Shown here: one piece after another, positions 3,540-18,926 of the stretch
Numbering within the stretch: position 1 is the stretch's first letter
Layout of the letters: the number at the start of each line of letters is the position of its first letter
Assembly: GCA_021850345.1 (NCBI GenBank)
Contig: JAJZMN010000148.1
Location: forward strand, 1 to 31,335
Direction: 5' to 3'
Length of the DNA: 31,335 nt
From: Actinomycetes bacterium
GTDB lineage: Bacteria; Actinomycetota; Acidimicrobiia; Acidimicrobiales; RAAP-2
The notes under the pieces: model-generated
What the model was told of the DNA's origin: nothing
The model's input: the letters and a program-made list of their open reading frames with translations, nothing else
Database searches by the model: none
Program-made: the position numbers and the translations under genes

Positions 3540-4982
3540 ATGGACGGCGCGCTCTCCATCGCGTCCTCGGCCCTCGGGGCGGCGACGACCGAGATCGGCG
3601 TCACCTCCGAGAACCTCGCGAACGCGCAGACGTCAGGGTATGTGAGCGAGAGCGCTCAGCTCGCCGCCCAGGCGGGCGGCGATGCGCTCGGCGTCGGCGC
3701 GGGGGTGCTCGTCACCGGCGTCACCCGCCAGAGCGATCCACTGCTCGCGGCGAACAACCTGCAGGCGCAAGGCGCGCTCTCCAGTCTCGCCGCCCTCCAG
3801 CAGGTGACGACCGGCATCGAGAACGTCTTCCCCCTCGGCCAGTCCTCCGGCGCGGACGCGAGCGGCACCCCGACGAACACGAGCGTCGCGGGACAGCTCG
3901 CGACCTTCTGGTCCTCCTTCGACGGCGTTGCGCAGGACCCCTCGGCCCTCGCGCCGCGCACCGCCGTGGTGGACAACGCGGCGGGCCTCGTGGCGAGCCT
4001 CAACGAGGCCGCCACCCAGCTGGGCCAGCTCGGGACGGACACCGCCGCGCAGCTCGCGGGCCAGATCTCACAGGTCAACACCCTGCTCGGCGACGCCGCC
4101 GGGCTGAACGCGCAGATCGTGGCGGTCAAAGGCGGTGGGGGCGATCCCAACCAGCTCCTCGACCAGCTCGACGCGCTGAGCACCAAGCTCGCCGGCCTCG
4201 TCGGGGCGAGCGTCCAGATGCAGCCCAACGGCTCCGCGTTGATCTCGATCGGCGGCGTCGCGGTCGTCCAGGACAGCGAGGTCACCAAGCTCTCCACGGC
4301 GACCGCGCTCGGGACGGTCGCGACGCCGGCTGGTCCGGTGTCGGCCCCCGTGACGACGGTGACGGCCGACCAGGGCGCGGTCGTGGTGCCGGTGAGCGGC
4401 GGCTCGGTCGCCGGGCTGCTCTCGGGACTCAACCAGGCGCTCCCGGTCGCGACCGGCGAGCTGAACCAGGTCGCGACGAACCTCGCGACACTCGTCGACA
4501 ACCAGCTGGCAAAGGGCGTCACGGCGTCGGGCACGCCGGGCGCAGCACTGTTCACGATCAACGGGGGGACGACCCCGCCGACAGCTCCGATCACCGCCGC
4601 GACGATCAGCGTCAACCCCGCGGTCCAGGCGAACCCGGACCTGCTCGCGGCGGCCACCAACCCCACGGCCGCGGCGAACGACGGGTCGAATGCGGCGGCC
4701 ATCGCCGAGCTCGCGAACGCGACCGGCTACACCACGAGTCCCGACGTCGCGTACCAGCAGCTCGTCCAGGACGTCGGCGCGGAGGCGCAGAACGCGACGA
4801 CCCAGGTCGCCGCCCAGAGCGCCGTCGCCCAGCAGGCCGAGCAGGCGCTGGCGGCGGTGAGTGGCGTCAACCAGAACACCGAGCTCACGAACCTGATGCA
4901 GTTCCAGTCGTCCTACCAGGCCTCCGCCAAGCTCGTCGGCGTGATCGACACCACGCTGCAGTCCCTTCTGGCCGCGGTGTGA
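3540..4982 (+). CDS. flgK: Flagellar hook-filament junction protein FlgK (HAP1)
   Basis: FlgK is the first junction protein between hook and filament and is exported through the flagellar type III apparatus. The 480-residue protein has the N-terminal axial motif IASSALGAATTEIGVTSENL followed by ANAQTSGY. Its C-terminal motif is SGVNQNTELTNLMQFQSSY followed by QASAKLV, the standard FlgK ending. The start is ATG at 3540, one base after the flgN-like stop; an upstream in-frame ATG at 3483 lies inside flgN. The protein is somewhat shorter than enteric FlgK, with a reduced middle domain. It has only about 2 Arg and 5 Lys, like the other axial proteins here. flgL follows after 7 nt. Confidence 0.95.
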   Translation: MDGALSIASSALGAATTEIGVTSENLANAQTSGYVSESAQLAAQAGGDALGVGAGVLVTGVTRQSDPLLAANNLQAQGALSSLAALQQVTTGIENVFPLGQSSGADASGTPTNTSVAGQLATFWSSFDGVAQDPSALAPRTAVVDNAAGLVASLNEAATQLGQLGTDTAAQLAGQISQVNTLLGDAAGLNAQIVAVKGGGGDPNQLLDQLDALSTKLAGLVGASVQMQPNGSALISIGGVAVVQDSEVTKLSTATALGTVATPAGPVSAPVTTVTADQGAVVVPVSGGSVAGLLSGLNQALPVATGELNQVATNLATLVDNQLAKGVTASGTPGAALFTINGGTTPPTAPITAATISVNPAVQANPDLLAAATNPTAAANDGSNAAAIAELANATGYTTSPDVAYQQLVQDVGAEAQNATTQVAAQSAVAQQAEQALAAVSGVNQNTELTNLMQFQSSYQASAKLVGVIDTTLQSLLAAV

Positions 4983-4989
4983 GGGCGGA

Positions 4990-5922
4990 ATGACCAGCAT
5001 CCTTCCCACGGCACCAGTGGTCATCACCCCGAACGTCCTCGCCTCGACCCTCGACGCCGGGCTGCTCGGGGACCAGGCGCAGATGGCGACCCTGCAGCAG
5101 CAGATCGCGACGGGCAACGCCATCGTCAAGGCGTCCGACGACCCGGCCGGCGCGGCGACGATGCTCCAGCTCCAGGCGGGCCTGCAGCGCGCCGGGCAGT
5201 ATGCACAGAACGCGCAGAACGGCGTCGGGTGGCTGACACTCGCGAACTCGACCGTCTCGTCGATGCTCAACCAGCTCCAGTCCGTCCTCAGCCTCGTCGA
5301 GGGCGTGAGCGGCTCGGCTCTCACGGGCCAGCAGGCCACGCTCACGAGCACCGCGGACCAGGTGAGCGGAGCCCTCGCCCAGCTGCGCAACCTCGCGAAC
5401 ACCACCTATGAGGGCAACCAGCCGCTCTTTGCCGGAACGGGCAACGCGACGGCGGCCTACGACGCGAGCGGCAACTACGTCGGCGGCGGCGCGGCGCCGG
5501 CGCGCACCGTGGCGCCGGGGACCACGGTTTCCGCCTCGGTCACCGGACCCGAGATCTTCGGGTCGGGCCCCACCAGCGTGATCGGGCCGAGCGGGGTCCT
5601 CGAGAACATCGTGAGCGACCTGAACACCGCCACGACGGCGTCGCTGCAGGACCTGCGTCAGAACCAGCTGCCGGCCCTGCAGGCGGCCCTTTCGACCGTC
5701 GAGGACGCGGCCGGCACCCTCGGCGCGAACCAGCAGCAGATGGAGGGCTTCGCAACCCAGGCGACGGCCTCCACGGCCGCCCTCGAGCAGGAGCTCGGCT
5801 CGCTGCAGTCGACCAACATGGCTCAGGCGATCACCAGCCTGCAGCTGCAGCAGAACGCGTACCAAGAGGCGCTCTATGCGACCTCGCAGCTCTCTGCCGA
5901 TTCGCTCGCGAAGTACCTGTGA
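4990..5922 (+). CDS. flgL: Flagellar hook-filament junction protein FlgL (HAP3)
   Basis: FlgL is the second junction protein and the platform for the filament. The 310-residue protein begins with the flagellin-like helix LQQQIATGNAIVKASDDPAG, where the A-SDDPAGAAT element is the FlgL hallmark (SDDPvaA). It ends with the helix MAQAITSLQLQQNAYQEAL and LAKYL. The middle domain is small. It sits 7 nt after flgK, the usual order. It contains few basic residues (about 4 Arg and 2 Lys). Confidence 0.93.
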   Translation: MTSILPTAPVVITPNVLASTLDAGLLGDQAQMATLQQQIATGNAIVKASDDPAGAATMLQLQAGLQRAGQYAQNAQNGVGWLTLANSTVSSMLNQLQSVLSLVEGVSGSALTGQQATLTSTADQVSGALAQLRNLANTTYEGNQPLFAGTGNATAAYDASGNYVGGGAAPARTVAPGTTVSASVTGPEIFGSGPTSVIGPSGVLENIVSDLNTATTASLQDLRQNQLPALQAALSTVEDAAGTLGANQQQMEGFATQATASTAALEQELGSLQSTNMAQAITSLQLQQNAYQEALYATSQLSADSLAKYL

Positions 5923-5944: not shown

Positions 5945-6394
5945 ATGTCCGCCACCTTGCTCCTCGAGCCCGAGCACGCCCCGGGCGTCGCGACGATCGA
6001 ACTCGGCGTCATGCTCGCCCGCCCCCTGGCCGGCTTCCCCCGGTCGCGTCGCTTCCGCCTGCACGGTCTCGGCGAGGCCTACCTCCCCTTCGTGGGGCTG
6101 AGCTCGCTCGATGAGCCGCTCGCCTTCATCGTGGTCGCCCCGGGGCTCTTCTTCGACGACTACGTCTTCGAGGTCCCCAAGGAGGACGTGGAGCTGCTCG
6201 GGCTGGACAACAGCGACGACGCCCGCGTCGTCGTGCTCGTCAGCCGGACCCCGGGCGCGGCGCCGACGGCGAATCTCATGGGCCCGCTCGTCATCAACCG
6301 GCGTTCCGGCGCCGCGACCCAGGTCGTGCTCAGCGACGGCCGCTACCGCGCCGCCGTCGCGCTGGAGGCCGAAAGACGTCTCAGCGGCGCCTGA
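5945..6394 (+). CDS. fliW: Flagellar assembly factor FliW (CsrA antagonist)
   Basis: FliW is known in Bacillus to bind flagellin in the cytoplasm or, when flagellin has been exported, to bind CsrA and release translation of flagellin mRNA. This 149-residue protein has the family landmarks: LPFVGLSSLDEPLAFIVVAP, then the FDDYVFEV segment, and TANLMGPLVINRRSG near the C-terminus (compare 'TvNL.APivIN'). ATG at 5945 is chosen because AGAAAGAGG lies just upstream and the protein begins at the normal place; an ATG at 5876 lies inside flgL. Its last 14 bases overlap the 3' end of the csrA gene on the other strand. Confidence 0.9.
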   Translation: MSATLLLEPEHAPGVATIELGVMLARPLAGFPRSRRFRLHGLGEAYLPFVGLSSLDEPLAFIVVAPGLFFDDYVFEVPKEDVELLGLDNSDDARVVVLVSRTPGAAPTANLMGPLVINRRSGAATQVVLSDGRYRAAVALEAERRLSGA

Positions 6395-6938
6395 ACGCCG
6401 CGCTCAGATCCGCAAGCTCCTCAGGGGTCCAGGCGCGCCCGGCGTCGGTGTTGGCGGCCTCGAGCTCGCGCCAGACCTCTTCGCGCAGCACGCGCACCTC
6501 CCGGGGTGCGTCGATTCCGAGTTTCACCTCGCCCCCGCTCGCGGGGAAGGCGGAGAGCACGACCGGCGCCACGAGCGCGGCACAGCCGAGCTCGAGCTCG
6601 GCCCGCTCGGGTGCCGTGGCCCGCAGGGTCACCTGGAGGCCCGGGAAGACCAGCGCTTCCCCGGGACGGCGGTTGACGAGCAGAACGGTGGCGTCATCGG
6701 CCGCGCACTCGACGCGGATCGCCCAGCTCTCTGGCTCCGCGGCGACGGCGCGCGGCCCGCGCACGGCGATGCAGGCCTCGGCGTCGGTGCTGAGGACCAC
6801 CGCGAGCCCGATCGGCTGAGCGATCCCCGGCGCGGCGAACTGCAGCCACGCACGCTGATCCTCGAGGCCCGTCACGACGACGCGCAGCCCCCCGTCGAAG
6901 ACGATCGCCTCCCCCGGCCGCCTGCGCAGCACGAGCAT
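6381..6938 (-). CDS. csrA: CsrA-family RNA-binding regulator with duplicated N-terminal half
   Basis: CsrA is normally about 60-75 residues; this one is 185. Residues 1-38 are a CsrA-like opening (MLVLRRRPGEAIVFDGGLRV and on). A second opening is at 85-105 (VLLVNRRPGEALVFPGLQVTL). A canonical CsrA back half is at 137-163 (EVKLGIDAPREVRVLREEV, then WRELEAAN). By alignment Arg152 matches the RNA-contacting Arg44 of CsrA, and Asn163 matches Asn55 of Bacillus CsrA, which is needed for FliW binding. Residues 39-84 and about 118-136 have no clear counterpart. The known protein is a domain-swapped homodimer, so this may be a single-chain pseudo-dimer, or a dimer with extra modules. The ATG at 6938 has GGGGAGGG upstream. 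It lies last in the flhA operon and runs convergent to fliW, its expected antagonist. Confidence 0.85.
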   Translation of the reverse strand: MLVLRRRPGEAIVFDGGLRVVVTGLEDQRAWLQFAAPGIAQPIGLAVVLSTDAEACIAVRGPRAVAAEPESWAIRVECAADDATVLLVNRRPGEALVFPGLQVTLRATAPERAELELGCAALVAPVVLSAFPASGGEVKLGIDAPREVRVLREEVWRELEAANTDAGRAWTPEELADLSAAFRRR

Positions 6939-7014: not shown

Positions 7015-7305
7015 TCAGTCCCGCTCGGGTCCGGGGAGGTCGCCGCGCGAGGCCGTGAGCCCCCGCGCGCCACGCACGCGCTCGAGACGAGCGTGGAGCT
7101 CGCGCTGGCGGGCCTGGCGCGCATAGGTGTCGATCGTCCGCTCCAACACCGCGCCGACGCCCCAGGCGAGCGCGAGCGCGAGCGCGACGTGCACCAGCGC
7201 GGTCGTGAGCCCGACGCCCCCGGTGAGCGCCTGGACAAGCGAGGGCGCCGACAGCGCGAGCGCGCCGATGAGCACCAGTTCGAAGCGCCGCACGCCCTGG
7301 ATCAC
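7015..7305 (-). CDS. Small two-helix membrane protein of unknown function
   Basis: This is a 96-residue protein whose GTG start (7305) overlaps the stop of the FlhF-like gene (GTGA). Two hydrophobic stretches, about residues 8-26 (FELVLIGALALSAPSLVQAL) and 30-52 (LTTALVHVALALALAWGVGAV), look like a membrane hairpin. They are followed by a charged, arginine-rich helical tail of about 40 residues. I do not recognise the family. It stands where flhG is found after flhF in many Gram-positive clusters, but it has no ATPase motifs. Its tight coupling to flhA and the FlhF-like gene suggests a role at the export gate or flagellar pole. 76 nt separate it from csrA. Confidence 0.7.
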   Translation of the reverse strand: MIQGVRRFELVLIGALALSAPSLVQALTGGVGLTTALVHVALALALAWGVGAVLERTIDTYARQARQRELHARLERVRGARGLTASRGDLPGPERD

Positions 7306-8537
7306 CCCTGGCCCTGGCGGCGCTCGAGGGCGGTCGCGAGGGTCCTCTCCCACGCCGGCGCATCCGCGCGACCCCCGCCGAGCCGGACGATCGGCGGGCC
7401 GGCGCCGAGGGCCGTCGCAGGGGTGAGCGTGTCGGCGAGGTCCTCCAGGATGAGGCCGTCGACGCCGCCGAGGGCATGGCAGCGATGGGCGAGGTCTTCG
7501 GGCTTGGTGCCCGCCGCGGCGACGAGGAAGGTGACGGAGAACTCGCCGGCGGCGAGGACCGCGCGCGCCCATGCGAGCTCCGTTGGGCCGGTGGCCGGGA
7601 GAAAGACGGCGACGACGCCGACGCGGCCGCGCCGCCATCCACCCTGCAGGTCCGCCACCTCGTCGGGATGGTGCGCGACCCGGTGCCCGCTGTCGGGTGC
7701 CCGGCGGCGGCGGGGAGAGACCTCGGCGATCGCCTCGGGCGCACAGCCGACCTCCTCGGCGATCGCACGGGCCTGGGCGCGGGCGCGTGCCGGCGGCCCG
7801 ATGACGGCGACGAGGCTTCCCGCGGTGTGCGGGAGCGGTCGCGGCGACGACAGGAGCGTCGCCGCCTCGGCGAGGCTCGTCGCGCGCCGGGCGAGCTCTG
7901 ACGCGAGCGGACGGGGCACGCCGGCAAAGAGGAGCTGGCCCGCGAGCGTCCCGTCCGTTGTGCGCTCCGGGCCGCGGGACGCCGCGTGGTTCTCCCCGGG
8001 CGCGGGCGCGCCGGGGTCCGCCGCCCGGGGGGGCTGCGGAGGGCTCGGCGCGATGGGGGAGTCGGTCGCGCCGAGTGCGGCCATCGCGGTCGCGGGGTCC
8101 TCGCCGAGGGAGCCGGCGACGCGTTCGAGCAGGGCGTCGAAGCTCCCCGGGGAGGTCTCGGCGACCTCGAGGCGGTCCTCGGTCGCCTCGACGAGCGCGT
8201 CGAGCGCGTGCGCCGTCGCGCTCGCCGCGACTGGCGCGGCGCCGGCGCGGGGGAGAGGCCGACCAGGCGTCGGCGCCGCGTGCTCCTGGCGCGGTCCGGC
8301 GCGCAGTCCGGCGAGGCAGGCGTCGCCGGCCGTTGGCCTTGCCGCCGCAACGGGGGCAGCCGGCTCGGGCGCGAGGACCTCGATGCGGTAGTGGAGCTTC
8401 GCGAAGAACCCGAAGAGGCCGCCCCGGCGGACGGCCGTCGGCTCGCTGATCCGCACGTCGGTGCCGTGCGCGCTCCACGCCTCGAGCAGCAGGCGCTCGG
8501 GATCGGGTCCCTCAAACACCAGCGGCTGCACGGACAT
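7302..8537 (-). CDS. flhF: FlhF-like protein with a degenerate, probably GTP-free G domain
   Basis: FlhF is an SRP-type GTPase that helps place and start flagella. The 411-residue protein keeps the FlhF N-terminal domain (DVRISEPTAVRRGGLFGFF, then AKLHYRIEV, residues 27-54), a long Ala/Pro-rich linker (about 60-200) and a C-terminal NG-like region. At the P-loop position it reads VAVIGPPARARAQARA instead of GPTGVGKTT. No DTAGR is visible, and the usual TKLDE site reads LEDLADT. It should therefore not bind GTP in the normal way. Parts of the fold remain (AAAGTKPEDLAHRC). It follows flhA directly, overlapping its 3' end by 26 nt, which is the usual flhF position. FlhF by descent with lost catalysis is my reading. 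Confidence 0.75.
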   Translation of the reverse strand: MSVQPLVFEGPDPERLLLEAWSAHGTDVRISEPTAVRRGGLFGFFAKLHYRIEVLAPEPAAPVAAARPTAGDACLAGLRAGPRQEHAAPTPGRPLPRAGAAPVAASATAHALDALVEATEDRLEVAETSPGSFDALLERVAGSLGEDPATAMAALGATDSPIAPSPPQPPRAADPGAPAPGENHAASRGPERTTDGTLAGQLLFAGVPRPLASELARRATSLAEAATLLSSPRPLPHTAGSLVAVIGPPARARAQARAIAEEVGCAPEAIAEVSPRRRRAPDSGHRVAHHPDEVADLQGGWRRGRVGVVAVFLPATGPTELAWARAVLAAGEFSVTFLVAAAGTKPEDLAHRCHALGGVDGLILEDLADTLTPATALGAGPPIVRLGGGRADAPAWERTLATALERRQGQG

Positions 8538-10880: not shown

Positions 10881-13800
10881 TCAGGTCGCGTGCAGGACGG
10901 AGAGATCGAGGAGATCCGCGATGCGGGCCTCGGCGACCCCGCGCTGGTTGGTCTCGGCAAGGTCGCGTGCCCGCTCGAGCGACGCCGCGGCCTTCTTGCG
11001 GACCTGGGCGGGGTCGGTGACGACGCGTTCCATGGCCGCGACAAGTTCGTCGCCGACGACCTCTCGCCACCGGCTCTCCCGGAACAGCGGGATGTCCCAG
11101 TGAGCGGCGCAGGGGAGGCTGGTCGTGGGGACGAGGAACGACGTCTCCTCGTCGCAGAAGTCACGATGGCCGCCGTGGTCCGGGCAGATGACGGGCACCC
11201 CGGCCGCCATGGCCTCGAGGAACGGCAGACCGAAGCCCTCGCCGCGTGTCGGCAGAACGAAGGCGTCGCAGTGGGCGAGGAAGTTCTGCAGCCACACGTC
11301 GTCGACGCGTCCGGTGTGGAGACTGAGCGACGCGTGCACGTCGTCGAGCGTGGCGGCGTCGAGGACGCGCGCCGCCCACTGCCAGAACTGCTCCTCGGAG
11401 AGTCCCGAGGTCTTCACTTTGAGCTCGACGCCGTGGCCCCGCGCCCGAAGGGCCGCGTAGGCGCGGAGCAGAGCCTCGGGGTTCTTGCGCGGCTCGAAGT
11501 TGAACACCGACGTGAAGATCACCGGCCCGCCGCGCTCGGCGCCCGCGAAGTTGGCCCGGGCGTGCGGCGCGACCGCGACGCTCGGGGCGATGCGCACGAC
11601 GCGCTGCGGGTCGCACCCTCCGGCGACCGCCGCACGCTCGACCTCTCGAGACATCGCCCACACCTCGTCGACCGGCGCGAGCGCCGCGCCGAGGTAGCCG
11701 GGGAGCGGGTGGGCTTCGAACGCGAGCCGGACGACGCGCTTGGCGGCCCGCACGCGCGCCAGCACGTCGGGGAGCCAGCCGACGGGCACGTCGATGACAG
11801 CGAGGCGGGAGCTGACCTCCAGCGCCTCGGAGAAGGGCAGCGTTCCGGGGGGAGGATCGCTGCCCGCTTTCGCCTCGAGGTCGACGCGGATCGTCTCGAC
11901 ACCGAGAGCACGGATGCGCTCCTGGTCGAAAAGCGCCCGCCCGGCGCGCCCCATGCCGCTCTCGGAGGAGAACAGGCCGAAGTGGACAAGACGTGGCGGC
12001 GCCCCGACACGCACCGCGCGCGGCCGGCCGGGCGCCGGGCGCCGGCGCAGCCGGCCGACGGCGATGATGTCGAGGGGCGCGTCGGGCGCGAGCGAGCGGC
12101 AGCCGCCCGCGACGGGCGCGAGGCCGACGCTCTCGAGCATCCCCGTGAGCAGGCCGAGGGGATAGGGGCGAACGTGGGTGGGGTCGAGCCAGAAGTTGCT
12201 CTGCGCGACAACGTCTCTTGAGAAGTCCGGCGTCTGGACGACGAGGGTCCCCCCGTCGTTGAGGTGCGCAGCCGCCCACGACAGCACCTCCAGCGCCCGC
12301 TCGGGGGCGAGGTGCTCGATGATGTGGCCCATGAACACGCCGTCGACCATCACCTCCCCCAGCGCGTCGAGGTCGTCGGGGATCCAGCCCAGGGTCACCG
12401 AAAACCCCTCGGCCGCCAGCGCAGCGACGAGGTCGGCGTCGCCCTCGATGCCGGCGACGGACTTGCCCTGCGCCCGGAGGGTGCGCATCATCGCACCCTT
12501 GCCGCATCCGAGGTCGAGAACGCTCCGACACGACGAGAAGTAGGGGGAGATCGCCTGCGCGATGCGCGCGACCGCGTCGTGGCTGCCCTCGTGGCCGTGG
12601 ACGACAGCGGGGACCTCTAGATTGTCACGCAGGGCGGCGACGAGGTCGAGGCGCCAGGGGGCCGCTGACCACAAGTCGGGCTGGGTCGCCGCGACGCTCT
12701 CGATGCGCCGGCGGGAGTGGCCGAGCTGGGGGTCGTCGCCGTGATGTCGGCGCCCGAGGTCCAGGACCTGCAGGGCGCTCTTCCAGTCGCCGACCCCGAG
12801 GAGCGCGCGCGCCGCGTCGATGATGGCGGGAGCCGCGAATTCGGTGACGACGCGCTGGACGGCGAGTGCCGCCCCGTGGAGGCGGTCCTCCTGGGCCCTG
12901 CCGCCGACGAGCTCTTCGAGCGCGGCGTCGGCGAGGCGCCCGACGTTGTCCCAGCTGAGCGTCGCGGCGCGCGCCCGGGCGGCCTCACGGGTCGCGCCGA
13001 GGTCGAGCTGCCCGTCGACGAGCGCGCGCAGCACCTGGCGGAACTGCGCGCCGTCGGGTTCCCGGTGATAGGGGAAGTCCACCGTGACCAGGCCGTCCAC
13101 GAACGGCGCCGGCCACCTCTCAAGGCGCGTGTCAACGAAGAAGGCTTCGCCCGTTCCGCAGTAGTCGTCGGTCGCGCCCCCCCGGGGAACGAGCACCGGG
13201 AGCCCGCACCCCATCGCCTCGAGGACGGGGAGCGCGAACCCTTCGGCACGGTACGGCTGGGCGAGCAGGTGGTGGCGGCACATCAGCTGGGCGAGATCGC
13301 GCCGGGCCAGTCCGGCGCGGATCACCGACGTGCGTGTCGCGACCCGCTCCCTGCCCGACAGGGCGCGCTCCACGAGCGATTCGGCCCCGTTTGGGCCCCA
13401 ACTCGCCGTCTCCTTGACGGTGAGCTTGACGCGCCGAAGGGCGGCGTCGTCGAGGTCGTCCAGCGCGTCGATGAGGATGTCGCAGCCTTTGCGATGGATG
13501 CCATTTCCGACAAAGAGGATCGAGACGCACTCTCCTCGCGTCGGCAGGTCGAACAGGTCGCCCTCGGCCAGGAGATCCGTGCCGTTCGGGACGACCCAGA
13601 CCTTGTCGGGCGCGATCCCACTTTGGACGTAACCCGCCTTCACGGTGGATGACGGGACCCAGATCGCGTCGGCGGCCTCGATGCCGGCGAGCCAGGAGAG
13701 CGGGACCGACCCGTACTCCCAGGACTGGATCACGACGAGTCGCGCGCCGGGTGGCGCGGGCGCAAAGACCGGAGGCCAGATCTGACGAAGAACGACGTCG

Positions 13801-14009
13801 GCGTCAAAGGTGGGGGCCGCCGGGACGCTGAACAGGTCGCCGAGCGCGAGGCCCTCGGCGACGAGGGCGGCCCGACAGTCCTCGGGGCTCTGGTCCCACG
13901 GCTCGATCACGACGCGATGCCCGCGCCCACTCAGGGCGCGGCCGAGGTGCAGATTGACGCGGCCGAAGCTGCCCGAGAGCGCCGAGGCGCCCTGGATGGC
14001 GATCTTCAC
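10881..14009 (-). CDS. Three-domain glycosyltransferase-methyltransferase-glycosyltransferase
   Basis: This 1,042-residue protein has three enzyme-like parts. Residues 1-370 form a GT4-type (GT-B fold) glycosyltransferase, with VVPNGTD near 140 and the donor-site motif AEGFALPVLEAMGCGLPV at 255-272. After a helical linker (about 375-480), residues 495-655 form a class I SAM methyltransferase (VLDLGCGKGAMM at 497-508, MGHIIEHL at 560-567). Residues 672-1042 form a second GT4-type domain, with RGEGFGLPFLEAMAAGVPV at 922-940. The GTG start at 14009 has GCGGAGG 8 nt upstream; longer frames lie in non-coding DNA. It is preceded by a sigma-28-type promoter and lies between flhA and fliC, so I infer a role in flagellin glycosylation and sugar methylation. 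Donor and acceptor are unknown. Confidence 0.8.
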   Translation of the reverse strand: MKIAIQGASALSGSFGRVNLHLGRALSGRGHRVVIEPWDQSPEDCRAALVAEGLALGDLFSVPAAPTFDADVVLRQIWPPVFAPAPPGARLVVIQSWEYGSVPLSWLAGIEAADAIWVPSSTVKAGYVQSGIAPDKVWVVPNGTDLLAEGDLFDLPTRGECVSILFVGNGIHRKGCDILIDALDDLDDAALRRVKLTVKETASWGPNGAESLVERALSGRERVATRTSVIRAGLARRDLAQLMCRHHLLAQPYRAEGFALPVLEAMGCGLPVLVPRGGATDDYCGTGEAFFVDTRLERWPAPFVDGLVTVDFPYHREPDGAQFRQVLRALVDGQLDLGATREAARARAATLSWDNVGRLADAALEELVGGRAQEDRLHGAALAVQRVVTEFAAPAIIDAARALLGVGDWKSALQVLDLGRRHHGDDPQLGHSRRRIESVAATQPDLWSAAPWRLDLVAALRDNLEVPAVVHGHEGSHDAVARIAQAISPYFSSCRSVLDLGCGKGAMMRTLRAQGKSVAGIEGDADLVAALAAEGFSVTLGWIPDDLDALGEVMVDGVFMGHIIEHLAPERALEVLSWAAAHLNDGGTLVVQTPDFSRDVVAQSNFWLDPTHVRPYPLGLLTGMLESVGLAPVAGGCRSLAPDAPLDIIAVGRLRRRPAPGRPRAVRVGAPPRLVHFGLFSSESGMGRAGRALFDQERIRALGVETIRVDLEAKAGSDPPPGTLPFSEALEVSSRLAVIDVPVGWLPDVLARVRAAKRVVRLAFEAHPLPGYLGAALAPVDEVWAMSREVERAAVAGGCDPQRVVRIAPSVAVAPHARANFAGAERGGPVIFTSVFNFEPRKNPEALLRAYAALRARGHGVELKVKTSGLSEEQFWQWAARVLDAATLDDVHASLSLHTGRVDDVWLQNFLAHCDAFVLPTRGEGFGLPFLEAMAAGVPVICPDHGGHRDFCDEETSFLVPTTSLPCAAHWDIPLFRESRWREVVGDELVAAMERVVTDPAQVRKKAAASLERARDLAETNQRGVAEARIADLLDLSVLHAT

Positions 14010-14070
14010 GTCGAACGACCTCCGCGCTCGCCTCGCTCGAAGCGGGGGAGACCTCCCCGCGCCCAGGGCG

Positions 14071-14097
14071 ATAACGGCCCCGGCGATCCCGCCTTGA
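14071..14097 (-). promoter_or_regulatory. Sigma-28-type promoter for the three-domain glycosyltransferase
   Basis: Read on the minus strand, TCAAG (14097-14093) is followed after 14 nt by GCCGTTAT (14078-14071). Only one base differs from GCCGATAT, and the spacing is identical to the flbD promoter. The expected leader is about 55 nt and ends in a good ribosome site. It lies downstream of the hairpin at 14112-14147, so the two glycosyltransferase genes appear to be separately transcribed. Confidence 0.6.
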
Positions 14098-14111
14098 GCA
14101 TCCCGGGACCA

Positions 14112-14147
14112 CCACGGCGCGCCCGGCGCGCCGCCGGCGCGCCGTGG
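14112..14147 (-). terminator. Perfect 12-bp hairpin between the two glycosyltransferase genes
   Basis: CCACGGCGCGCC (14112-14123) and GGCGCGCCGTGG (14136-14147) are perfect inverted copies around a 12-nt GC-rich loop. It lies 95-130 nt after the stop of the upstream glycosyltransferase and just before the next promoter, the place of a terminator. No T-run follows, so a factor-dependent or hairpin-only mechanism would be needed. The remaining bases of the 14010-14241 gap show no gene. Confidence 0.5.
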
Positions 14148-14241
14148 AGCACTCTGCGCTCCGCAGCGGCCCGGTCGCCGCCGTGCGGCCCGTGCTCCGC
14201 TGAGACCAAGACGTCCGTCCCCAATCCGAGCCGGTGGCTTG

Positions 14242-17200
14242 TCAGCCGGCTTCGGCGCCCTGTTGCGCGCCGCAGCGCCGCAGCGCCTCGAGACGTGCCG
14301 CCGCGGCCTGTGCGGCATGGCGCCAGGTCCACGAGTCGACGATCCGCTGACGTCCGCGCCCGCCCCGTCGGCGCGCGCCGTCGGGATCGGCCACGACCGA
14401 GCGCATCGCGTCGGCGAGCGCCGCACGGCGCGGCTCGAGCCACCAGGAACCGGCCTCGGAGGGCGTGAACTCGGCGGGCCACACGCCGACGCGCCGCGCC
14501 GGGAGCATCCAGGCGACCTCGTCGTCGCAAAAATCGTCGCAGGCACCGCCGGCCGTCACGACGGCGGGCAGTCCACAGGCCAGGGCCTCGGCGACGGGGA
14601 GGGCGAACCCCTCTCCCCGATAGGGATGGACCAGTGCGTCGCAGGAGCGGTAGAGCGCGGCCATCTCCTCCCCGCTCAGGTCACCTTCGACGATCTCGAT
14701 AGCCGGCGCACCCGGAGCGCTGGACGCGGCACGCAGCTCGTCTTCGAAGTGCTGGTTCGCATAGACGCCGCGCGCCCCATAGGGCTTGACCACAAGGCAG
14801 ACGTCATCGCTCGCGCGAAAGGTCGCCAGGTAGGTCTCGAGCAGGACGTCGAAGCCCTTGCGCGCGATGCAGCCGCCCACGAACAAGAGGCGTCTCCTGC
14901 CGGGGCGTGCAGCCGGCCGACGCGCCCCGTCGGGGCGGAACAGTGCGACGTCGACCCCGTTCGGCACGACGTGCACCTTGGGCGCGGGAATGCCGCTTGC
15001 GACCGCCCCGTCGCGCACGAAGCGCGAGGGCACCCACAGCTCGTCCACGACGTCGCGCAGCGGGCCCACCCACTCGGCGGGGAACCCCCCGTACTCAAAG
15101 GGTTGGATGCAGACGAGGCGGCCCTCGGCCGGGGGACGGAAGTCCGGGGGCCACTGGTGGCGGATCTCGACGGCCACGCCCGCCGCCTCCGCCCGCTCGC
15201 CTTGGCGGGCGGCGGAGCCGCCCGGCGAGCGGTGCCCCGCCGCGCGCGGATCGACGGCCTCGACGGCGATCGGCGGTTGCGCGTCGTTGAGGTGGCGGAC
15301 CAGCTCCCGGTTGACCTGGGCGAGGCTGTCGAGACCGCTGCAGGAGCTCGTCAGCACGACCCGCCCCCTCCCCGGGGTGGAGGGTCCGCGCCGACGCGCC
15401 GCCGGGCGCGCCGCATCGAGGCGGGCCTCGAGCTCGCCGACGCGCGAGCGCGGGGGCTGGTCAAAAGGACCCTCGCCGTCGAGAAGGCCGGTGACGGCGT
15501 TGCGCACCTCCTCTGTGGCGCAGCCCGCTCGCACACGCACGAGCGGCGTCGCCGCGGCGCCGGCGAGTCCGCGCCACTCCTGGTCGTCGGCGTCGTCCTC
15601 GCCACCGAGCAGGACGGCGCCCCGTACGGCGGCGAGGAGGGGGCGCGGGTCACCCCCCGGGGCGAGCACGAGGGCGCCGGGCACGGCGGCGACAAGGTCG
15701 GGGTCCCCCGCCGCACCGGCGAGCGCGATCGGCACGCCCTCGGCGGCGACGACGACCTCGCCGAGCGCGCCGGTGCGCCAGGAGGCGGGGACCGGGGGCT
15801 CGGGAGGCATCCCGAGCACGACGAGGATCCCGTGGCGCGCCGCGGCGGGCAGCGGGGCGCCGAACGCGAACGCGTCCGGCGCGACCGGCGGCAGGGCGTC
15901 GCGCGCATCGTCGAGGATCGCGGCCCCGGGGGCGATCTGGCGCAGCGCCGCCACCACGTCGGGCGCGCCGGCGCTGAGCACGATTGCGTCGAGGCGCCGG
16001 CGAGCGAACTGAAAGGCCACCGCGCTGCGAAGCGCGCGCAAGGTCTCCGTCCCCGGCGGCCAGGTGTGCATCTCGATCCCGGGCGCCGCTTCGGTGGGTG
16101 CGGCCCCCGCCGCGGGCCCGGGCTGCGCGAGAACGACGGTGTTCCCCGCGCCCTGCAGCGCCCGCGCGAGCGCGAGGGGACGCAGCGCCCCGTTTCGTCC
16201 CGCGACAACCAGCACCTGACGGCCGGCGGAGTCCGGGCGACGCACCGGCCCCGGGGGGAGGCGCGAGGTCGCCGCGTCGAAGAGGTGGACCGCGTCGGGC
16301 GCGAGCGCGGCGAGCTCCTGGCGCAGTGCCGGCACCTCCCCGCCCGAGAGCCCGAGGCAGGCCGCGACGAGCGCCAGGCGCGCGCGCTCGTCACCGAAGA
16401 GCGCCAGCACGGCGGCAGTGCCGAGGATGCGCTGGCGCGCCGGGGTCTCCTGGCAGGTCGCCCCCGCGATGACCGGACACGCGCTGGCAAGACCCGCGTG
16501 ACGAAGGCGCGCCGACCAGACGAGCTGGCGCTCCACCGAAAGGCGCGTGGCGACGCGCGCCGCGCCGGCGAGCACGGACAGATTCCCGGGCTCGCGCGCG
16601 CACCACGCCTCGAGCACCGCGTCCGCCTTCTCGGGCTCGAGCTGGAGGAGCGGCGGCACGAAGGCGCGCAGACGCGCGCTGCCCAGCGCGTCGTAGATCT
16701 CGGCCGGATCGCGTCCGGCGGCCTCGAGCGCCTCCACGAGGAGACCGAGGTGCCCGTCGATCCCGTCGCGGCTCCGCAGCGAGGCGAGGAGCACCTCGGC
16801 CGCCTCGCCGGGTCGGCCGAGGCCCAGGAGCGCGCGCGCCCGCTCATGGGCGACGAGGTGCGGGCCGTACTCGAACCCGTCGAGGTCGACGGCGTCGACG
16901 ACCCTGCCCGCGGCGGCCAGGGCCTCCTCGAGGGCGTCCCCGCCGAGGTGCGCACGCACGGCGAAGATCTCCGCGAGCTCGGGCGCCCCTGCGGCCCGCA
17001 GCTCCCCGACGAGCGCGATCACCTCGTCGTTCCTCGCCAGGGCGAGCAGCGCCTCGCCGATGGCGCGCAACGCCAGGCGACGGGTCGGAGCATTGCCGAG
17101 GCGTGCCGCCTCCCGGCACAGATCGATGCAGGCGTCGAGATCCCCGGCGAGCATGTAGCTGCGCCCGAGATTGGACAGTGTCGCGGCGTACTCCGCGCCG

Positions 17201-18056: not shown

Positions 18057-18101
18057 CCCGCACGGATGCGGGTCGCCATCACGAAAGCGAGGAAATGGAT
18101 G
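18057..18101 (+). promoter_or_regulatory. Two predicted CsrA-binding sites in the fliC leader
   Basis: CCCGC (18057-18061) and GCGGG (18068-18072) form a 5-bp stem that presents ACGGAT (18062-18067) as a hexaloop. This is the ANGGAN loop known to be bound by CsrA/RsmE, in the full consensus CANGGANG. A second site, AATGGATG (18094-18101), covers the fliC start codon. A third GGA (18091-18093) lies in the ribosome site. The arrangement resembles the two-site control of Bacillus hag by CsrA. Confidence 0.6.
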
Positions 18102-18926
18102 TCTTCTCTCGTCGTGGACACCAACCTTTCGGCGATCGCGGCGTACAACGCGCTGAACGCCACCGACCAGAACATGAGCAAGGCGATCCAGGAGCTGTCG
18201 ACGGGCCTCGCGGTCCAGACGGCGGCCGACGGACCGGCCGCGTATGTCCAGAGCCAGGCGCTCGAGTCCCAGACCAACGGCTACCAAGCGGCGATCGCGA
18301 ACGCCCAGGACGGCGTCTCGCTCGTCCAGACCGCGTCCGGCGCGCTGAACCAGATCTCGAGCATCCTGCAGACCATGAACCAGCTGGCGATGAACTCCGC
18401 CAACGGCGCGACCCAGGACCAGACGTCCCTCGCCGCCAACCAGCAGGAGTTCCAGGCGCTCCAGAACGACATCACCCAGATCGCGAGCACCACGAGCTAC
18501 GGCACGACCTCGCTTCTCGACGGCTCCTTCAGCAACCAGGTGCTCCAGGTCGGGGCGTTCGCGGGCGGGAACAACCAGATCTCCCTCACGATCTCGGGCG
18601 TGACGGTGACCAGCCTCGGCCTCTCGGGGGTCTCGGTCGCCTCGCCGACGGGCGCCGCGTCGGCGCTCACGGCCGTGCAGTCGGCGATCACCCAGGTCGA
18701 CACGATCGAGGCGAGCGTCGGCGCGGTCCAAAACGAGCTGCAGGCGATCGCCGCGAACCTCACGGTCGGCGCCCAGAACCTCACCGCGGCCAACAGCCAG
18801 CTCGTCGACGTGAACATGGCCCAGCAGATGACCACGTTCTCGACCGACCAGATCCTCATGCAGACCGGCACCGCGATGCTCGCCCAGGCCCAGCAGGCAC
18901 CGCAGCTCGTCCTGAAACTGATCTGA
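18099..18926 (+). CDS. fliC: Flagellin
   Basis: This is the filament subunit, exported through the flagellar apparatus. The 275-residue protein has the conserved N-terminal D0/D1 region (SLVVDTNLSAIAAYNALN, then IQELSTGLAVQTAADGPAAY and GALNQISSILQTMNQLAMNSA) and the C-terminal D0/D1 region (VDVNMAQQMTTFSTDQILMQ, then TGTAMLAQAQQAPQLVLKLI). The surface domain is very short. I chose ATG at 18099 because flagellins begin at this point and GCGAGGAAATGG lies before it; ATG at 18066 would add 11 atypical residues. The protein contains no arginine, only two lysines and about 36 glutamines. The arginines of the TLR5 contact segment LQRVREL are replaced (LQTMNQL). Confidence 0.96.
   Translation: MSSLVVDTNLSAIAAYNALNATDQNMSKAIQELSTGLAVQTAADGPAAYVQSQALESQTNGYQAAIANAQDGVSLVQTASGALNQISSILQTMNQLAMNSANGATQDQTSLAANQQEFQALQNDITQIASTTSYGTTSLLDGSFSNQVLQVGAFAGGNNQISLTISGVTVTSLGLSGVSVASPTGAASALTAVQSAITQVDTIEASVGAVQNELQAIAANLTVGAQNLTAANSQLVDVNMAQQMTTFSTDQILMQTGTAMLAQAQQAPQLVLKLI

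Follow-up and report, generated by a model that had tools for sequence, protein, structure and literature searches.

A two-module CsrA in flagellar loci of Acidimicrobiales, a putative single-chain pseudo-dimer with one conserved RNA site

In the usual account, CsrA is a symmetric dimer that bridges two sites on an mRNA, and its antagonist FliW acts on it in a 2:2 complex. According to four studies, each RNA site combines one subunit's strand 1 with strand 5 of its partner, the positions L2, L4, R6, V/I42, R44 and E46 are among the most important, and a salt bridge between R6 and E46 links the subunits (PMC7829508, PMC6692469, PMC7652899, PMC3791407). The chain is short, with 61 aa in E. coli and 65–75 aa on average (PMC7366521, in the section available). 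Bridging is given a range of 10–63 nt, and full repression of glgC is said to require a dimer with both pockets (PMC7652899, extracts). In the accessible part of PMC10746217, the gene list names CsrA and FliW once each. A two-module CsrA was not found reported in the literature searched, which is weak evidence of absence since most subscription papers lie outside that search.

The gene considered here lies in a stretch of 31,335 nucleotides (contig JAJZMN010000148.1, hereafter the window) from an actinobacterial genome of the order Acidimicrobiales. An earlier sequence-only reading had described a single uninterrupted frame of 185 residues at 6381–6938; such a frame is present, on the minus strand (Table 1). 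Read on the plus strand, the same interval contains no CsrA in its translation. GGGGAGGG lies just 5′ of the ATG, as seen at the near-identical locus L039 of genome G001, and the start (M)LVL is common to the relatives. The Pfam-supported neighbours of csrA are FlbD, MotA, MotB, FlgN, FlgK, an FlgL-like protein, FliW and FlhA. Two further minus-strand frames of this region were noted. One of 411 aa at 7302–8537, between flhA and csrA, has no Pfam match and is FlhF-like by position and length only. The other is a long frame at 10881–14546 inside the flagellar cluster, with stretches that look by eye like glycosyltransferase and methyltransferase, possibly for flagellin modification.

Table 1. 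Features of the two-module csrA locus and of the flagellin gene in the window
Feature	Position	Strand	Basis and remarks
Two-module CsrA gene, 185 aa	6381..6938	-	ATG at 6938, stop 6383-6381; Pfam and relatives
Module A, residues 1-72	6723..6938	-	Pfam CsrA 1-37; homology to B
First half of conserved putative RNA site, residues 2-10 of A (L2, L4, R6, R7, E10)	6909..6935	-	Invariant in 29/29
Module B, residues 84-165	6444..6689	-	Pfam CsrA 25-51 at residues 133-159; homology to A
Second half of conserved putative RNA site and FliW contact, residues 141-163 of B	6450..6518	-	Conservation; roles from accessible parts of PMC6692469, PMC7829508
fliW	5945..6394	+	Pfam FliW 90.8 bits, cut-off 25; convergent with csrA, 3′ overlap 14 bases
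flgL-like gene	4990..5922	+	Flagellin_N 57.1 bits; upstream of fliW; flgL identity inferred by position after flgK
flgK	3540..4982	+	FlgK_D1 149.9 bits
Flagellin gene, expected target mRNA	18099..18926	+	Flagellin_N 102.4, Flagellin_C 67 bits; start script-picked
Candidate leader hairpin CGGCCCGC-ACGGAU-GCGGGUCG, GGA in loop	18054..18075	+	45 to 24 bases 5′ of flagellin start
Second ANGGA site over start codon, GAGGA-AATGGATG-TCTTC	18089..18106	+	Ribosome-binding GAGGA in predicted stem

Membership of the protein in the CsrA family is clear at the level of Pfam, where the whole chain scores 61.3 bits against PF02599 (cut-off 27). Against the NCBIfam equivalogs it stays below threshold, with 48.4 bits for NF002469 (cut-off 73) and 42.1 bits for TIGR00202 (cut-off 70.1), and its 185 aa, with about seven strands per module in the predicted model, depart from the short CsrA chain with five strands and one helix. 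Judged by these comparisons of length, architecture and profile score, it is best classed as a derived variant of the CsrA family. Residues 1–37 correspond to positions 1–37 of the Pfam profile at 28.1 bits, so that the first part, for which the earlier reading had named a missing family score as grounds for refutation, lies barely over the cut-off of 27. Residues 133–159 correspond to positions 25–51, and no separate Pfam match was reported for residues 85–125. Of the two CsrA-like openings previously described (1–38 and 85–125), the former is thus recognised by Pfam directly, and the CsrA nature of the latter follows from its alignment with the first half. Residues 1–66 and 84–149 share 32% identity over 65 aa in BLASTP (E 1e-9), and HH-align matches the two halves of a 25-row alignment over 64 columns (probability 98.4, E 1e-14). 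Residues 43–66 align with 126–149, and module A therefore has a back half of its own, without the equivalents of Arg44 and Glu46. The view that only the front half was duplicated, leaving one back half, has to be given up; since the two halves are homologous, the whole extended CsrA module, with its extra hairpin, was duplicated.

In the predicted model, the strands of module A span residues 2–6, 11–14, 18–26, 29–35, 43–50, 55–60 and 62–68, and those of module B 85–90, 95–98, 101–109, 112–118, 126–133, 137–143 and 150–152, followed by a helix at 153–168. A profile search of the PDB placed residues 13–57 of E. coli CsrA (1y00), that is, strand 3 onward, on profile positions 119–163, and the start of the CsrA 1t3o also, weakly (9.4 bits), on positions 1–28. 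When these alignments are taken with the predicted strands, each module reads as strands 1-2-3-4, a second hairpin resembling strands 3-4, and strand 5, with the long helix after module B only. Single-chain models from two clades reached pLDDT 89.6 and 84.2 and pTM 0.81 and 0.77 with near-identical strand order. The predicted monomer thus gives the first half a CsrA-like strand order and not an unrelated fold. The structure comparison had no CsrA entry among the matches listed, which counts against a pseudo-dimer reading.

Searches of protein databases yielded 46 two-module proteins, 24 in the first search and 22, forming a divergent clade, in the second, along with P0050, a doubtful member of 163 aa. 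The window's own cluster is represented by P0003 (99% identical), and the set overlaps partly with the genomes considered next; P0026, for example, is the protein of G019. Among the 35 genomes of the family of the nearest genome, 11 carry the two-module form, 7 have one canonical domain and 17 have neither; ten of the 11 are full-length in the profile search, and G007 was added from its frame, which differs from P0028 by one residue over the compared part. In a class-wide search with the two-module profile, in which no more than eight candidates were scored per genome, 91 of 395 sampled genomes matched, two of them (G001 and G019) at full length; in the other 89, all matches among those listed start at profile position 119 or later, as ordinary CsrA does. 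A scan of genome contigs gave 12 loci, seven of which are two-module over at least 170 residues and are labelled Acidimicrobiaceae or ‘Actinomycetes’ MAGs, one of these (L031) lying outside the 11 family genomes; the remaining five matches are short and belong to other groups. In the Pfam search no second CsrA gene was found in the 11 two-module genomes, several of which are incomplete, nor was a further match found in the nearest genome (68% complete); G001, G010 and G019 give two CsrA matches each, both in one gene. Some unusual forms were met on the way. Locus L023 of G032 is a 64-aa frame with a CsrA-like front half (MLVIKRKEGEHLRIG), in a genome that has a complete single-domain CsrA elsewhere, and P0070 and P0071 (190 aa) carry a domain that looks by eye like a receiver, followed by a CsrA domain.

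CsrA occurs together with flagellar genes. Within the family, 18 of 35 genomes have a CsrA match and the identical 18 have a Flagellin_N match (that of G029 probably being FlgL, by position). FliW was matched in 17 of these 18 and in 10 of the 11 two-module genomes, the exception being G019. In a FliW tree of 48 rows, one of them on a very long branch, one group unites the window with ten two-module genomes (100/100), and another holds the seven single-domain family members (97/91). fliW is convergent with csrA in nine of the ten two-module genomes having it; G007 and six of the seven single-domain genomes have it 5′ of csrA in the same orientation, and the two genes are about 24 kb apart in G005. 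A tree of the separate modules from 28 proteins (P0041, with a long insert, was left out) is divided by one branch into A and B modules (96/83), and both clades are largely recovered on each side, with P0026 apart on the B side; columns are few and many forks are poorly supported. One duplication before the split of the clades is therefore the simplest reading. A standalone extended module, a possible ancestor, was not found among 8 examined of the 102 proteins from a profile search with module B: six are canonical CsrA chains of 59–114 aa and two (P0085 and P0086) are partial module-B sequences.

The distribution of conserved residues over the two modules is uneven. Twenty-nine two-module proteins covering both clades were compared (9 of the 25 rows of alignment A1, three locus proteins and 17 of the 23 rows of A5), and 15 positions are invariant: six in strands 1 and 2 of module A (L2, V3, L4, R6, R7 and E10), Gly93, and eight in strands 4–5 and the helix of module B (G141, A144, P145, R149, V150, R152, E154 and W156). 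With an offset of 108, the last eight correspond to G33, A36, P37, S41, V42, R44, E46 and Y48 of E. coli CsrA, by the Pfam and PDB profile alignments. The RNA-contact set L2, L4, R6, V42, R44 and E46 (E. coli/C. jejuni numbering) is accordingly found here split across the two modules, its last three members being V150, R152 and E154; the strand-5 arginine singled out earlier, Arg152, is present as described and unchanged in 29/29. Taken with the published rule that sites are composite, this set points to one complete putative RNA site, to which A contributes strand 1 and B strand 5. The doubtful P0050, outside the 29, keeps L2, L4, R6, R7 and E10 and the equivalents of A144, V150, R152 and E154, without those of P145 and W156.

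The reciprocal site, which would pair module B's strand 1 with strand 5 of module A, is different. Among the 29 rows, arginine never occupies the Arg44 equivalent in module A, where G, D, E, P, A, N or T stands instead, and the R6 equivalent in module B is kept as R in 15 rows and is C in 10; by its residues, strand 5 of module A appears decayed for RNA binding. Over ten positions the mean entropy is 0.0 for the conserved site vs 1.95 for the reciprocal one, these positions having been picked after the invariants were known and including a Pro37 equivalent that is absent from the published list. Because of that choice, the comparison was repeated over all 19 positions reported to affect RNA binding in C. 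jejuni CsrA (PMC6692469, accessible part). The contrast is smaller and persists: the front of A plus the back of B gives 0.60 and the reverse pairing 1.79, and the modules taken singly give 1.10 (A) and 1.28 (B). The proposal of one good and one decayed RNA site in a single chain thus gains support from conservation across the 29 proteins.

Control by FliW was expected to persist because the contact asparagine is kept, and this agrees with the wider data: N163, the equivalent of Asn55, stands in the C-terminal helix next to a fliW gene, and it is found in all 27 rows of one alignment and in 23 of 29 in the broader set. Down to 27% identity the RNA-contact residues do not vary, which makes them better conserved than this asparagine, absent in six of the 29. 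The subclade P0044–P0049 has lost the asparagine and kept the RNA site, and it may be free of FliW control.

The flagellin leaders were compared in ten two-module records (nine of them distinct, since the window and G001 do not differ here), seven single-domain family members and 29 other members of the class; 27 of the 29 class genomes had a CsrA match, a thirtieth locus without a leader was dropped, and flagellin starts were picked by script, nearest ATG first. The window's 22-mer hairpin alone is predicted at -15.4 kcal/mol (z -3.83), and its 66-nt leader has a second predicted stem that takes up the ribosome-binding GAGGA, with AATGGATG in the loop; the whole leader is no better folded than shuffles (z -0.69). 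A hairpin of 3 to 8 unbroken pairs with an ANGGA whose GGA is in the loop, 35–37 bases 5′ of the start, occurs in nine of ten two-module leaders. The tenth, that of G019, keeps most of the stem and has lost the GGA; this genome (95% complete; loci L040 and L125) has the two-module CsrA and flagellin and no FliW match. At the same threshold at least one GGA hairpin occurs in 7/7 single-domain and 25/29 other class leaders, and the mean number per leader is 1.9, 1.57 and 1.21 (two-module, single-domain and class) vs 0.42, 0.27 and 0.32 in shuffles. Since such hairpins are common in the comparison leaders, the candidate hairpin is shared with genomes having ordinary CsrA. The leader stem pairs in 91.7% of cells vs 30–40% for slid pairings, and compensatory change was not above shuffles, of which 129/500 were as high on the covariation score and 140/500 on cells paired.

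The two-module leaders are distinguished by their downstream motif. Within the ribosome-binding region (-20 to -5), ANGGA occurs in 35 of 36 comparison leaders vs 1 of 10 two-module leaders, and over the start codon in none of the 36 vs all ten. The two-module leaders are one lineage, and this difference is therefore one event and not ten; the shift may be a trait of the flagellin lineage rather than one connected with CsrA. In nine of the ten, the two ANGGA motifs are about 33–35 bases apart. An initial idea that the leaders hold one site only, matching a one-site protein, was dropped because of the second ANGGA at the start codon. At 18222, inside the flagellin coding sequence, another GGA hairpin was also considered as an extra site; its GGA is found only in G001, which matches the window exactly there, and is absent in the eight other two-module flagellins examined.

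The reading we favour, and consider rather probable, is that of a single-chain CsrA pseudo-dimer that has a single RNA site and a single helix for FliW contact and would still act on the mRNA of flagellin. An ancestral gene would have gained an extended CsrA module, with its extra strand 3-strand 4 hairpin, and this module would then have been duplicated in tandem. Strand 1 of module A would make one RNA site together with strand 5 and the helix of module B, while the reciprocal site would have lost its RNA residues. Each chain would bind one GGA hairpin, with the flagellin leader among its targets, and block translation; FliW, encoded next door, would bind the Asn163 helix and free the mRNA, probably in a 1:1 complex instead of the usual 2:2. 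Several observations count against this reading, namely the stem covariation, the whole-leader folding score, the loss of the asparagine in six proteins and the missing FliW of G019. Another is that the conservation pattern would be identical if two chains completed each other's site.

That last arrangement, an ordinary homodimer in which strand 1 of A in one chain meets strand 5 of B from the partner chain to form two RNA sites with usual bridging, predicts the same conserved residues. Nine of the ten two-module leaders keep two ANGGA motifs whose spacing lies within the bridging range and suits a two-site binder, and two sites per unit may exist. We still regard the homodimer as unlikely, because the single-chain models are confident, the strands needed by a CsrA dimer are already present in each chain, and the decay of the reciprocal site would be left unexplained. 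The position of the downstream motif also speaks for a heterobivalent protein, in which the first site reads the leader hairpin and the reciprocal site a new ligand, for instance the start-codon motif or a partner protein; strand 1 of module B also keeps Arg at position 91 in 20/29 and Leu at 86 in 23/29. That such a chain, with a canonical GGA-hairpin site and a new-ligand site, evolved together with the movement of the leader's second site from the ribosome-binding region to the start codon is improbable, and so is heterobivalency as a general explanation of the protein: the second site has no polar set conserved across the clades, as its entropies on both position sets indicate, and since the two groups also have flagellins of different lineage, the leader difference may be descent. 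Scores below the NCBI csrA cut-offs could be taken to mean that RNA binding has been lost and the protein is only a FliW partner or is decaying, but RNA-contact residues that outlast the FliW-contact asparagine make this very improbable. A sequencing or assembly artefact fusing two csrA genes, a possibility raised with the original reading, can be dismissed almost entirely, as a survey of related genomes found the same form in 11 of them, and it recurs in the partly overlapping set of database proteins.

If the pseudo-dimer reading is true, a lineage relies on a one-site CsrA. Where the only CsrA detected is an asymmetric chain of this kind, repression would proceed without bridging, or bridging would be restored by another route. 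Since the whole system would be in one polypeptide, each RNA site and the stoichiometry with FliW could be mutated separately, which would offer a natural test of the need for two sites. The protein would also document how duplication and fusion produced a specialised pseudo-dimer from a protein that elsewhere is a homodimer.

Compared with the FliW-controlled CsrA/RsmA (PF02599) of Bacillus, Geobacillus and Campylobacter, the two-module protein has the same RNA-contact residues, the same C-terminal helix with its FliW-contact asparagine, an adjoining fliW, a flagellar locus and a candidate GGA hairpin in the flagellin leader. What sets it apart is that a single chain of 185 aa, made up of two unequal modules each extended by an extra hairpin, replaces the dimer of short chains, and that just one RNA site is conserved. 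P0061, a database protein of 176 aa, likewise has two CsrA domains in one chain; these are canonical tandem domains, both apparently complete by sequence and without extra hairpins, and the protein exceeds the NCBI csrA cut-off (124.4 against 73 bits); it is a separate case. RsmN/RsmF of Pseudomonas is also a rearranged CsrA in which an insertion alters strand sharing; according to its published description, its 71-aa chains form a dimer, carry an additional helix that separates strand 2 from strand 3, and lack the C-terminal one (PMC3791407). Here no helix separates these strands in either module of the predicted model; the insertion takes the form of a beta hairpin, two modules are fused, and strand 5 of B still runs into a C-terminal helix. 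A functional parallel may be the CsrA heterodimer made in the laboratory with R44A in one subunit (Mercante et al., 2009, as cited in PMC7652899), which would share with the present protein, if our reading is right, one working RNA site per unit; the two-module CsrA is natural, single-chain and fixed by evolution.
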